Assembly (NCBI GenBank): GCA_009746045.1
Contig: RPFO01000231.1
Location: 1,042,388 to 1,106,387, forward strand
Direction of reading: 5' to 3'
Source of the DNA: Mesostigma viride
Taxonomy: Eukaryota; Streptophyta; Mesostigmatophyceae; Mesostigmatales; Mesostigmataceae
DNA: 64,000 nucleotides
Below the pieces are notes generated by a model. The model ran no database searches and was not told the DNA's origin. It saw only the letters and a program-made list of their open reading frames with translations. The position numbers were made by a program, and so were the translations under genes. Every line of letters begins with the position of its first letter. Positions within the stretch are counted from its first letter, which is position 1. Positions 5,146-62,400 of this stretch are shown piece after piece.

Positions 5146-5203
5146 TTACTCTCGCGGCCGCTTCATGCGCTGCACCTTCACGCGCTCGCCGACTTCGATT
5201 TCG
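5146..5203 (-). CDS. SMC6: SMC6 exon 27 (residues 1052-1070 and stop)
   Basis: [19 protein letters not shown] and TAA. The 'GER-K-Q-M--PR' ending resembles land-plant SMC6, supporting plant-lineage origin. Acceptor tttgcag. Confidence 0.93.
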
Positions 5204-8200
5204 CTGCAAAAATTATATCGTCGAGGCAAGCAGCATAGTATATGCATATGCATACAGAGAGGCGAAGCGCAGGGTGTCTTGTTAGGTACAAGCTCGGCAG
5301 CACATCTTGCGGACAACAGGTTCTACAGAGTGTGTTGCCCCTGTCAGAACCATCACAGCAGGAAGTTGATAGACAGTAGGGCCGACCGACTAACCGATAA
5401 ACCGGTCATAGAACGTAATAGGCTGATGTATATCCCTAAGCTGATATATATGATGTATTAGGCTGATGCATGGTAACTCGAGGTCAGTAGGCTGATGTAA
5501 GTAAGCAAAAGAAAGTACATGTCATATGCTGATGCATGATAACTTGAATTCAATAGACTTGTCAAGCCATCTCAGGTTCTTGTCAGATTCTTGCCAGGTT
5601 ATTGTCAGGTTCATGTGATGTCGACGAACCCACAAAGCACACCACAAAGCTCCTGGAAACCATAAGTAAACAGCGCAAGCAGCAAGCAAGGCTGGAAGGG
5701 AAGCCAAGCTACCACGCTATGCAAATGGCCACGCTATGCAAATGGATCGCAGCCACGCTACCAATCGTCCAAGCACGCGCACATCGACAACACCAAGTCA
5801 TAAGGAATGGAACAACCGACAACACCCCCAAATGGGCATTCTTGGCATTGTGCCCCCACAAAGGCAATGTGTGTGTCTTAAAAGTGGCACACTGGGTACC
5901 TGACATTTGACTTGCCAAAATCCACCCGCCTACCCCCAACAGGTAGGAGTTAACGGGTAGAGGTTGTTGCCCTTACTTACTTTCGCACTTACTTACCTAC
6001 AGGCAGCGAGGCACACTTGTTCCTGGTTATTCTTGGATGGCTAAAGGCGAAAAGCTTACTGTCAACGACACCGGTGATGCAGCCAGCGTAGGCATGAAAC
6101 CGCGATGACCTTAGGACCAAAGGTTCGAGCCTGCTTTAATACTAGGCCAACTAACACGTATGCACACTAACCAACGTATGCGCAACTAAGCGCATGCCTT
6201 GACTTCACAACTCCTATGACACTACTAGCTGCTTAACCCTATAAAAGCCCCCCACCTGATCTCGTTGGGCGTGAGGAAGACAAACTGGATGTGCGGGTTC
6301 TCCATCGCGTAGGTGATCAGCGTCTCCAAACTCTTCTTGCGCGTGACCGAGTCCTGTGTTAAGAATGCCACTCCAAGAATCCCAGCTAATTAGGTCACGG
6401 GTTTATCAGGTCTTAGTGGGTTAAACTCTTCTTGCGTGTGACCAAGTCCTGCAGTGGTGATGACAGGTTAGGCAAGCCAGATGACGGGACCAGTCAGATG
6501 ACTCTATACTCTTCTTGCGCGTGACCCGTGGTCCAGGGAAGGTTCCTGCTGTGGTCCGTGCAAACGATAAGACCAGTTAATACGATTAGATAAGACCATT
6601 TTCAAACGATTAGATAAGACCATTTCCAACAATTATACTCAAACGATGATAGTATTAGTCAGTAGTAATAGTAGTAATAGTCAGCGCCATTCGCATGTCC
6701 AAGCCCTGCAGTGTTGATGTGAACGCTACTTTTAATTGCTATCGGTACTTGCTACCGCCCCACGCACCACCAAGATGCCGCACTCGTCATGCAGCGAACG
6801 AGACGGTCGCACTGCACTGCACTGAACGACCACTGTCACAGGCACTGTACCAGTGCTGATGGGTACATATATGCTGGTACGGGTACCTTGACCACAGAGA
6901 TAACGGCAGGCTCGAGCTACCATGGTCCGGATTTCTGGCCTGCGCTGGTTGTCTCCTTGATACTGGTACGGGTACCTTGACCACACTGGGGCACTATGCC
7001 TTCCTCTGGCGCATACGTTAGCTCCCACACCACGCACCATGAAGATGTCGAACTCGTCCATGCAGCGGAAGGGGCAGTCGTTCTCCTTGGCGAGCGCCAG
7101 CAGGAACGCGAGCGTGGTGAAGGACTTCTCGCCGCCTGTGGCATGCAGGCAAGCAGGCAAGCAGGCGAGCGGGCGAGCGGGCGAGCGGGCGAGCAGGCGA
7201 GCAGGCGAGCAGGCGAGCAGGCGAGCAGGCGAGCAGGCGAGCAGGCGAGCAGGCGAGCAGGCGAGCAGGCGAGCAGGCGAGCAGGCGAGCAGGCGAGCAG
7301 GCGAGCAGGCGAGCAGGCGAGCAGGCGAGCAGGCGAGCAGGCGAGCAGGCGAGCAGGCGAGGAGGCGAGGAGGCGAGGAGGCGAGGAGGCGAGGAGGCGA
7401 GGAGGCGAGGAGGCGAGGAGGCGAGGAGGCGAGGAGGCGAGGAGGCGAGGAGGCGAGGAGGCGAGGAGGCGAGGAGGCGAGGAGGCGAGGAGGCGAGGAG
7501 GCGAGGAGGCGAGGAGGCGAGGAGGCGAGGAGGCGAGGAGGCGAGGAGGCGAGGAGGCGAGGAGGCGAGGAGGCGAGGAGGCGAGGAGGCGAGGAGGCGA
7601 GGAGGCGAGGAGGCGAGGAGGCGAGGAGGCGAGGAGGCGAGGAGGCGAGGAGGCGAGGCGAGGAGGCGAGGAGGCGAGGAGGCGAGGAGGCGAGGAGGCG
7701 AGGAGGCGAGGAGGCGAGGAGGCGAGGAGGCGAGGAGGCGAGGAGGCGAGGAGGCGAGGAGGCGAGGAGGCGAGGCGAGGAGGCGAGGAGGCGAGGAGGC
7801 GAGGAGGCGAGGAGGCGAGGAGGCGAGGAGGCGAGGAGGCGAGGAGGCGAGGAGGCGAGGAGGCGAGGAGGCGAGGAGGCGAGGAGGCGAGGAGGCGAGG
7901 AGGCGAGGAGGCGAGGAGGCGAGGAGGCGAGGAGGCGAGGAGGCGAGGAGGCGAGGAGGCGAGGAGGCAAGGAGGCAAGGAGGCAAGGAGGCAAGGAGGC
8001 AAGGAGGCAAGGAGGCAAGGAGGCAAGGAGGCAAGGAGGCAAGGAGGCAAGGAGGCAAGGAGGCAAGGAGGCAAGGAGGCAAGGAGGCAAGGAGGCAAGG
8101 AGGCAAGGAGGCAAGGAGGCGAGGAGGCAAGGAGGCGAGGAGGCAAGGAGGCAAGGAGGCAAGGAGGCAAGGAGGCAAGGAGGCAAGGAGGCAAGGAGGC

Positions 8201-59400: not shown

Positions 59401-62400
59401 GCGTACGGGGTCGGCGCGAGGTTCGGGGGGCTTGGGGTTGGTGGCAGTGCAGGGGGGGTTGGAGGAGGGGTGCGAGGGTCCGGGGGCAAGAGTGACCTGT
59501 CCCAATCGGGCAAAAGCTTGACCCTTTGCGAAAGTCCCATGGAGGAGGGAGAAGCGGCGAAGCTTGACCGTGAGATGGCTGTTGGGGCGTGTGTCAGAAA
59601 TATCACAGAGGAAACCGTGGGACAGAATGGGCTGGGCCGGCGAAACGCCCCCGGGTTAAAAGGGAGAGATGCCCTGGGGTTGAGGCCGGGACATGCCATT
59701 GAGACAGGTAGCCTCAGTTACGATCGCTGCAGGGAAACCAAGGCTGAGGAGAGGACTGGAAGGGGAAGCGCTGCAGTTTTGGACAGATTGTTGGCAGCAG
59801 ATATGGATGAGATGGACAAGGATAGTGCCCCTGAGCTCACGTTGGATCCCAGAGGGGGAAGGCCGGCGGCTCCAGATCATCCCTCGAGGCTGGGCGGTGG
59901 CTCCAGATTTCATGAGGCTGCGGCCGGTGGTGCAGCGGCAGTGGAAGCGGCAGCAGCTGTGAAAGCAGCAGCAGCGGAAGCAGTGAAACGTCGAGGAGGG
60001 GGGGCGGCGGCAGCATCAGCGACGAGCCTGCGTGGCCCTGATGGCCCTGGCCTGCGAGACACTGGCCCTGGCGTGCAAGGCGACCCCGGCATGCACGATG
60101 GCTCCCGGCTGCCAGACAGCTTTGAGCTGCCGAGAGGCTTTGGCCTAGGGATGGAAAGCAAGGACGAGGGTGAGGGCAGGATCGTGGTTGTAAGTGCGGT
60201 GGAAGGAGGTCGGCCTCACCGTAGCGCGCGCCCCTCGGTGGGGGATGCCACCAGAAGTCTCGGTAGCGGTGGGCGAGGCCAGCTTATTACAAGCAGCAAG
60301 GGGGTTCTCTCGTTTACCAAAGACATGTCTCCACAACGATACAAGAGATTGGAATTCAACGCTGGTCGGCCAAGGGGTGGGGATGAGCTCCAGGGAGCGA
60401 GGATGGATAGTCTAGGCCGGCCCAGGGCTTCACCAGGGCTTCACACGGCAGCCGCTTCTTCAAGGAATGAGGGAAGGTCCATGGATGGCGTGTCAGAGAG
60501 TGGAAGGAAGAGCATCGGTGCTGTGCCCTTGTGGGGCGCGGGGATGCCAGTCACTGGGCGCGGAACGGCGGGGGTGCCAGCGGAACGGACTGTGGCTGTG
60601 CAAGGCACAGGGGACAGAGCTGTGGTTCTCCCCCGAACCCTGGCGGACAAGGGCGACGTGGGCGTGGGGGTGGTACCAAAGGACGGGAGGGAAGGGGGAT
60701 GGGAGAATGGGGCGGGAAGGAGGCAGGATGGAGAAGGGGAGGGCGGCGTGCGAGCGTTGATCGCAGACCTGCAGCGCCAGATGGCGGAACAGGACGCGAT
60801 TCTTCGGGAGGAAGGCATCGGTGAGTGGTTTGTATGTTTAGCACGGGGTGGAGCTGATATTGCTGGTACGGAGAGCAGATAGACTGGTCATTGTTTGTTA
60901 GAGGAAGGCATCGGTGCGTGGTTTGTATGTTTAGCACGGGGTGGAACTGATATTGCTGGTACAGAGAGCAGATAGACTGGTCATTGTTTGTTAGAGGAAG
61001 GCATTGTTTTTTTTTTTTTTTTTGGTCATCGCTGAGCGCTTGGTTCTTTGATACAGCTCTACATACACAGGGCTACACATTTGGCAGATTGGACGGTGAG
61101 TAGGGTGATAGTGACTTTCCAGGCGAAATCCCATTTTAGGCGAAATCCCCATATTTGTTGGGAAAATCGTGGTTGTTTGCGTGAACGTGTCAAATGCCGT
61201 ATGGCTGTTGAGACGCCCCATCTCTTTGGTGGCCACTAGATGGTCTGGAAAGGGCCATTAGTTGGTTCAAGTAGGCTTCAATCTTAACGATGGGTGGCTC
61301 CGCTAAAGGATGGCGAAGAGTCGCAGAATGTCCTCTATGCTCTGCTGCCCTTTGCGCTGGTGGACGCCGATTCCAAGACATCCATAGATCTTGCTCCTGA
61401 AAGGGGTGCCGATAATTGGCTTTTTAGCTAATCTCTGCACCCAGCTCCCCCAGTAGTTGTAAGAGATTCAGATGGCGTTCTCTCGGGTTCACACGGCCTG
61501 AAACTTTGCACCTTCCTATTCACGCACAGAGGTGTGAATAGGACGGAGTGCACAATCCTTAGTTGACCCACGGCAGGGTAGCTATCAGGTGTGAATAGGA
61601 AGGCGTGCACGATCCTCTATTGTACCCACGGCAGAGTAGCAATCAGGTGTGAATAGGAAGGCGTGCACGATCCACTATTGTACCCACGGCAGAGTAGCTA
61701 TCAGGTGTGAATAGGAAGGCGTGCACGATCCTCTATTGTACCCACGGCAGAGTAGCTATCAGGTGTGAATAGGAAGGCGTGCACGATCCTCTAGTGTACC
61801 CACGGCAGAGTAGCAATCAGGTGTGAATAGGAAGGCGTGCACGATCCACTATTGTACCCACGGCAGAGTAGCTATCAGGTGTGAATAGGAAGGCGTGCAC
61901 GATCCTCTATTGTACCCACGGCAGAGTAGCTATCAGGTGTGAATAGGAAGGCGTGCACGATCCTCTATTGTACCCACGGCAGAGTAGCTATCAGGTGTGA
62001 ATAGGAAGGCGTGCACGATCCTCTAGTGTACCCACGGCAGAGTAGCTATCAGGTGTGAATAGGAAGGCGTGCACGATCCACTATTGTACCCACGGCAGAG
62101 TAGCTATCAGGTGTGAATAGGAAGGCGTGCACGATCCTCTATTGTACCCACGGCAGAGTAGCTATCAGGTGTGAATAGGAAGGCGTGCACGATCCTCTAG
62201 TGTACCCACGGCAGGGTAGCTATCAGGTGTGAATAGGAAGGCGTGCACGATCCTCTATTGTACCCACGGCAGAGTAGCTATCAGGTGTGAATAGGAAGGC
62301 GTGCACGATCCACTATTGTACCCACGGCAGAGTAGCTATCAGGTGTGAATAGGAAGGCGTGCACGATCCTCTATTGTACCCACGGCAGAGTAGCTATCAG

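Follow-up and report, generated by a model that had tools for sequence, protein, structure and literature searches.

Decayed copies of exon edges in the introns of six Mesostigma viride genes point to local tandem duplication

We analyzed a 64,000-nucleotide stretch of contig RPFO01000231.1 from Mesostigma viride (hereafter, the window), which carries a gene for SMC6 and a gene for a RING protein. Many exons of the SMC6 gene have an inexact copy of their edge in the adjoining intron, on the same side of the exon and on the same strand. Similar copies are found in the RING gene and in four CCT genes elsewhere in the genome, so that the whole sample is 6 genes, with 59 introns and 118 junctions. 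We think it quite probable that these introns turn over by frequent local head-to-tail duplication that is blind to position, and that exon edges seem to be favored because exons are conserved.

The SMC6 gene lies on the minus strand (window 52280–5146) and is complete, with 27 exons encoding 1,070 amino acids. All 26 of its introns are GT-AG, with lengths of 124–15,412 nucleotides (nt). The RING gene lies on the plus strand, from 53385, and its product has a C3HC4 RING domain at the N-terminus.

Copies of exon edges and their recurrence

We aligned the 40 exonic nt at each edge to the neighboring intron, over at most 3 kb, and compared each score with those from 200 dinucleotide shuffles. At 14 of the 52 SMC6 junctions, the score was reached by 0/200 shuffles. 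With BLAST (E ≤ 0.01) on the SMC6 junction regions, we found 26 copies at 17/52 junctions, on 14 of the 27 exons, each on its own side and its own strand. These junctions (D, donor; A, acceptor) are 3D, 5A, 6A, 9D, 10A, 14D, 15A, 15D, 16A, 16D, 17D, 19D, 20A, 21D, 25A, 25D, and 26A. Three of them (10A, 15A, and 15D) are unremarkable on exonic bases alone, as 19, 30, and 4 of 200 shuffles reach their scores, so it is the intronic stretch of the match that supports these calls.

The matches are specific. At z ≥ 5, 12/52 SMC6 edges match their own side on the direct strand, against 1/364 for the wrong-side, inverted, and other-intron controls combined. The wrong-side and inverted controls for the SMC6 edges were empty at this threshold. 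Matches to other SMC6 introns numbered 1/260 at z ≥ 5, and the sharing of sequence by many introns that is expected of dispersed (introner-type) inserts was not seen.

An earlier note, made by reading the window alone, had listed 22 places where an exon edge is copied on the same side and strand. Nineteen of these hold up (17/20 in SMC6 and 2/2 in the RING gene, the latter with E values of 0.001 for the acceptor copy and 1e-41 for the donor tandem). The acceptor of exon 13 and the donor of exon 7 are at chance level (76/200 and 165/200 shuffles), the donor of exon 12 is borderline (7/200), and BLAST found no copy at any of the three. The note was also right that the copies vary widely in age: their identity runs from 97% down to ~65%, or 3–35% divergence. 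The copies are as follows (window coordinates).

51169–51381, minus strand: SMC6 exon 3 donor copies; exon 51429–51583; 75-bp period; first copy retains the decoy GT; 73% identity over 216 columns, E 2e-32; 0/200 shuffles
48873–49278, minus strand: SMC6 exon 5 acceptor copies; exon 48729–48815; 90-bp array; AG kept in 3/4
47879–47929, minus strand: SMC6 exon 6 acceptor copy; exon 47473–47796; AG kept; 84% over 51 nt, E 3e-12
43567–43605, minus strand: SMC6 exon 9 donor copy; exon 43675–43751; GT lost; score 93, 0/200 shuffles; BLAST E 0.01
42216–42543, minus strand: SMC6 exon 10 acceptor, two short copies, 42521–42543 (91%) and 42216–42233 (94%); exon 42036–42111
22352–22402, minus strand: SMC6 exon 14 donor copy; exon 22473–22575; GT lost; 75% over 51 nt, E 1e-7
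21629–21678, minus strand: SMC6 exon 15 acceptor copy; exon 21394–21509; BLAST E 1e-5
21239–21274, minus strand: SMC6 exon 15 donor copy; BLAST E 1e-6
21067–21087, minus strand: SMC6 exon 16 acceptor copy; exon 20777–20975; 95% over 21 nt; 0/200 shuffles
20315–20428, minus strand: SMC6 exon 16 donor, two copies, 20384–20428 and 20315–20361; both with GT and a site score equal to the real donor's
18861–19019, minus strand: SMC6 exon 17 donor, two copies, 18861–18903 (86%) and 18989–19019 (87%); exon 19164–19416
16290–16312, minus strand: SMC6 exon 19 donor copy; exon 16535–16627; beyond a 9-bp array; 96% over 23 nt
14896–15112, minus strand: SMC6 exon 20 acceptor, two copies, 14896–14963 (65%) and 15080–15112 (76%); exon 14678–14820
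13617–13877, minus strand: SMC6 exon 21 donor copies, 13617–13681 and 13846–13877; exon 13948–14056; found by shuffle test and BLAST
9311–9355, minus strand: SMC6 exon 25 acceptor copy; exon 7038–7135; 2.2 kb off, across an 8-bp array; 89% over 45 nt, E 5e-12
6751–6809, minus strand: SMC6 exon 25 donor copy; GT kept; 78% over 60 columns, E 4e-10
6423–6526, minus strand: SMC6 exon 26 acceptor, two copies, 6423–6451 (93%) and 6502–6526 (92%); exon 6256–6353
57114–57136, plus strand: RING exon 4 acceptor copy; exon 57281–60820; 87% over 23 nt
60901–61004, plus strand: RING exon 4 donor tandem copy; 93-bp period; GT kept; 97% over 104 nt

For replication, we searched the genome for the TCP-1 family (58 matches on 13 contigs) and took four genes, which we named CCT5, CCT2, CCT7, and CCT4 by their best PDB matches. 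We considered introns of at least 200 nt (which leaves out 5 of the 59) at z ≥ 5. Donors with a copy number 8/25 in SMC6, 6/26 in the CCT genes (in three of the four), and 0/3 in the RING gene; the corresponding counts for acceptors are 5/25, 0/26, and 0/3. Edge copies thus recur on two other contigs at this threshold and on a third by BLAST, which is also how they were found in the fourth CCT gene. Across all six genes, BLAST (E ≤ 1e-3, copy at most 1.5 kb away) gave copies at 28/118 junctions (18 donors, 10 acceptors). Direct, same-side duplicates that contain the junction are present in all 6 genes. This bears out the earlier note's claim of recurrent local duplication across splice junctions. 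The splice dinucleotide (GT or AG) is kept in 24 of the 39 BLAST copies. Copy offsets in the BLAST set are a multiple of three at 10/28 junctions, which is no excess, as expected without coding selection.

Windows from exon interiors (at least 40 nt from an edge) match the neighboring intron in 0/786 cases at z ≥ 5 and in 5/786 at z ≥ 4. This is a prediction of tandem duplication, because exon sequence ends up in the intron only if the unit contains the junction. On the same result we rejected dispersed or retro-copied exon fragments, which we had considered. As interior, inverted, and other-intron copies are absent or at chance, we infer that the units are local head-to-tail duplications that contain the splice site.

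How much intronic sequence the copies carry depends on the comparison. With rigid windows, the exonic side of 16 copies has a mean identity of 0.87, while the intronic side has 0.51, against 0.46 for random sequence (p = 0.09). We at first read this as an abrupt end of the copies at the splice site. That reading is withdrawn in part, as a gap-tolerant comparison (with the splice consensus excluded) found 8 of the 16 intronic flanks to be homologous at p < 0.05 (combined p = 4e-8). Judging from these alignments, the duplicated units span the junction and include both exonic and intronic sequence, with the 8/16 flanks being individually significant. In the young cases (exon 3, exon 5, and RING exon 4), the copies abut and the offset equals the unit length. 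Older copies mostly lie at offsets of 70–450 nt with a shorter detectable match, and one is 2.2 kb off with an array in between. In the SMC6, RING, and CCT models, the copies are each contained within one intron, and the copied stretch has no additional intron.

Are exon edges favored?

Introns also match themselves, at a rate that depends on how arrays are treated: 14–41% of intron windows match their own intron if nothing is masked and 6–12% if arrays of at least 5 copies are masked. With all arrays of at least 2 copies masked, 3–6% match in SMC6 and the CCT genes and 0.7% in the RING gene. The masked comparison gives a roughly 2- to 4-fold enrichment at exon edges, but it masks arrays in introns only, so we preferred an array-collapsed comparison. 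Here only the first copy of each repeat is counted, and intron windows have both sides tested. (For the 15.4-kb intron 10 of SMC6, internal windows were left out and both edges were retained.) At z ≥ 5, 19/108 edges (17.6%) have a copy, against 211/2,263 first-copy intron windows (9.3%). The ratio is 1.90 (bootstrap 95% confidence interval 1.15–2.71); at z ≥ 4, 6, and 8 it is 1.77, 2.21, and 1.72, and at z ≥ 8 the interval reaches down to 0.92.

We then simulated duplications that fall anywhere, with those inside exons purged, exons evolving slowly, and introns decaying. The position-blind simulation gave ratios of 1.36 and 1.82 at two rates, with 15–22% of edges having a copy. If exons evolve as fast as introns, the ratio falls to 0.70. 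The edge excess can thus follow from conservation of the exon's copy alone. The earlier note had argued for growth anchored at exon edges and had proposed self-comparison against random intron positions as a check. Run on six genes, a comparison of this kind finds edge copies to be commoner, but position-blind duplication yields a similar excess, so the claim of anchoring is not supported.

We propose the following mechanism. Segments of a few tens to ~200 bases would be duplicated head to tail, irrespective of gene structure, probably by replication slippage or by unequal or template-switch repair. A duplication inside an exon would be purged. One that straddles a splice junction would be tolerated, because its outer copy falls in the intron and the exon-proximal splice site stays in use; the spliceosome presumably ignores most of the decoy sites. 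As the exon would hold one copy nearly unchanged, the pair should be recognizable for about twice as long as a pair within an intron. The intronic part would decay on both sides, and the alignment would be trimmed to its exonic part. Edges would look favored because the exon preserves one copy and the alignment shrinks to the exonic part.

Some edge duplicates have grown into arrays: 90 bp × 4.6 at the exon 5 acceptor, 75 bp × 2.3 at the exon 3 donor, and 93 bp × 2.1 at the RING exon 4 donor. We compared arrays of at least 50 bp with random placement around the 118 junctions. Within 20, 35, and 60 nt of a junction there are 15, 19, and 22 arrays, against 4.6, 7.8, and 12.8 expected (3.3-, 2.4-, and 1.7-fold). 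At 35 nt, the crowding has p = 0.0015 in SMC6 and p = 0.0085 in the CCT genes. Position-blind simulation in which part of the events expand to arrays gave 3.2–3.5, 2.1–2.3, and 1.5–1.7 fold. The idea that edge duplication seeds minisatellites holds for a few arrays, but the crowding at exons is matched by simulation with no preference for edges. Our figures do not bear out edge duplication as a main route by which introns lengthen: edge-spanning copies make up 2–6% of intron length and arrays 13–39% (SMC6 without intron 10).

Several arrays of SMC6 deserve description. Intron 10 is mostly one 13.8-kb array (window 26983–40749) of ~312 copies of a 45-bp unit. A 31-base core of it has 289 occurrences genome-wide, on one strand; those among them that were listed fall within this array. 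In intron 24, an 8-bp unit is repeated 237 times and TGG 64 times (window 7147–9036 and 9091–9283); these arrays separate exon 25 from its old acceptor-edge copy. The array at the exon 5 acceptor (window 48783–49193) has a 90-bp unit, which is a multiple of three and lacks stops. Inserts of 90, 180, 270, or 360 nt would be in frame and open; splicing at one of the decoys with AG would lengthen the protein in frame by 30, 90, or 120 residues, and AG is gone from the copy at offset 180.

A number of observations weigh against position-blind duplication as the full account. Copies at z ≥ 5 are found at 14/54 donors and 5/54 acceptors (Fisher p = 0.041), and a symmetric model predicts no such difference. 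The intronic side of the copies (0.51, n = 16) is below the 0.62–0.65 simulated for copies of like exonic identity, and the intronic halves are more eroded than simulated even after gap-tolerant comparison; perhaps real introns have more insertions and deletions than our simulation. Genes differ, with copies at 13/50 edges in SMC6, 6/52 in the CCT genes, and 0/6 in the RING gene (z ≥ 5, array-collapsed). Also, the sample is small, at 6 genes and 59 introns, and the simulated rates, unit lengths, and deletions were of our choosing, with 3 settings for the ratio, 2 for the crowding, and 2 for the flanks, which differ from one another.

The donor excess may reflect selection, and this is how we prefer to read it. 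If splicing is co-transcriptional, the correct donor is transcribed before its decoy and the correct acceptor after, so the upstream of two donors is right, the upstream of two acceptors is wrong, and acceptor duplicates would be removed more often. The acceptor rate (9%) is below the simulated edge rates and the donor rate (26%) is above them, as this would predict. But the statistics are weak (the BLAST counts, 18/59 donors and 10/59 acceptors, have p = 0.13), in SMC6 by itself the counts are 8/25 donors and 5/25 acceptors, and AG is intact in 3 of the 4 exon 5 decoy acceptors. We therefore offer side-dependent selection as a tentative addition to position-blind duplication.

Alternatively, duplication could start preferentially at splice junctions, and above all at donors, via breaks, R-loops, or template switches tied to transcription, splicing, or recognition of the 5' splice site, and this would lengthen introns and seed minisatellites. 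If it were biased to donors, introns would grow from their 5' ends. The raw edge rate (against 4–9% in array-masked intron windows), the arrays that hug exon edges, and the weak intronic halves fit this idea, as does the donor rate, which is 2.8 times the intron first-copy rate (simulated, 1.4–1.8). Yet the acceptor rate is the same as the intron first-copy rate, edge copies account for little of the intron length, and the position-blind simulation reproduces both the ratio and the crowding. The last point led us to set this mechanism aside as the default, and we consider it unlikely.

It is very improbable that the copies result from misassembly or from chance matching among repeats, and we count this as refuted for the diverged copies: although the region is rich in tandem arrays (57% of SMC6 intron bases), the copies are inexact and recur on other contigs, and the shuffle test and the strand and side controls rule out chance matching.

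Gene models and neighboring features

The SMC6 model is identical to database protein P0001 (1,666 amino acids, encoded in the window) over 100% of the SMC6 length. Its first 292 residues match the Pfam families AAA_23/SMC_N, and the next-best scores are to SMC6 proteins from Micractinium and Selaginella, at 29–33% identity. The C-terminal part of P0001 is a separate downstream reading frame with a TTL domain (PF03133), which that gene model fuses to SMC6. A short piece links the two in the fusion (window 1–5146). It has a second occurrence, at 49% identity, on the joined flank ~9 kb farther on, and it may derive from a mobile element. The nearest solved structures to the RING-gene product include RING2, TRIM21, and BRCA1. 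Exon 4 of the RING gene starts with a tandem acceptor (window 57278–57283), whose two AGs are 3 bases apart and both preserve the frame.

The genome we used is 440 Mb in 2,243 contigs. The published figures for Mesostigma viride are a 442-Mb genome and a mean intron length of 1,142 bp (PMC6947507). A scan for coding segments in 240 kb of flanking sequence found mostly transposon-like reading frames, as judged by eye. Rfam gave no match at the gathering score.

To map the CCT exons, we used human CCT sequences and a spliced-alignment script. In a trial on SMC6 with references of ~30% identity, the script placed 47–67% of junctions exactly; the CCT references are much closer. The CCT5 model, in which we corrected one donor by hand, is the same as the database protein (P0121, labeled jgi/Mesvir1 in EukProt) except for a 14-residue insert and one residue at one intron edge. 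At intron 1, P0121 has the 14 extra residues at a conserved position; use of a donor lying 42 nt downstream from the modeled one would account for them. The models of CCT2, CCT7, and CCT4 rest on spliced alignment, as only CCT5 was compared with a database protein. In CCT4 (contig C1568), two introns that flank a doubtful exon were left out before counting. Near-identical copies of a TCP-1 family gene on C887 and C1641 differ by a ~3.1-kb insertion in one intron. The insertion has 730-bp ends that are 100% identical, and it is a long-terminal-repeat-type element that arrived recently.

Exon-edge copies as a record, and their precedents

An exon edge is a conserved template on which old intronic duplications stay recognizable. 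Each junction thereby keeps a miniature fossil record of intron turnover that runs on a single clock rather than two. From such records, the rates at which local duplications arise and decay could be measured within a single genome, with no need for relatives. The junctions also offer real splice sites naturally paired with decoys of graded age, which should be useful for asking how the spliceosome chooses. A caution is that exon edges can look enriched even when no mechanism is directed to them.

A literature search for an earlier census of exon-edge copies found precedents and, among the titles listed, no census, which does not by itself establish that none is in print. Given these precedents, the earlier note's view that the phenomenon is undescribed was too strong. 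The type of event is known; our data add that it recurs, at roughly one in four of the junctions studied and with widely differing ages, and that exon edges can serve as a one-clock record.

The closest precedent is a potato RdRp gene (RdRp, RNA-dependent RNA polymerase), for which a tandem duplication that crosses an intron-exon boundary is described (PMC4974935). As in our copies, the duplicated segment there holds the 3' end of an intron together with the start of the exon that follows, and so includes the splice site. By that account, the potato duplication led to a new intron that took in a small, formerly exonic segment, whereas our copies stay in the old intron and are recurrent. In human segmental duplications, internal tandem repeats are reported at exon-intron boundaries (PMC2812944). 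These also straddle the boundary and are able to change splicing. As outlined there, they were identified by comparing recent paralogs and assessed with transcripts, while we found decayed copies within one genome and from DNA alone. Finally, tandem duplication is a recognized route of intron gain (PMC3443670). This model, as stated in that source, shares with ours a local head-to-tail duplication with duplicated splice signals, but it makes an intron from an exon. In our gene models there is no sign of intron gain; instead, existing introns lengthen.

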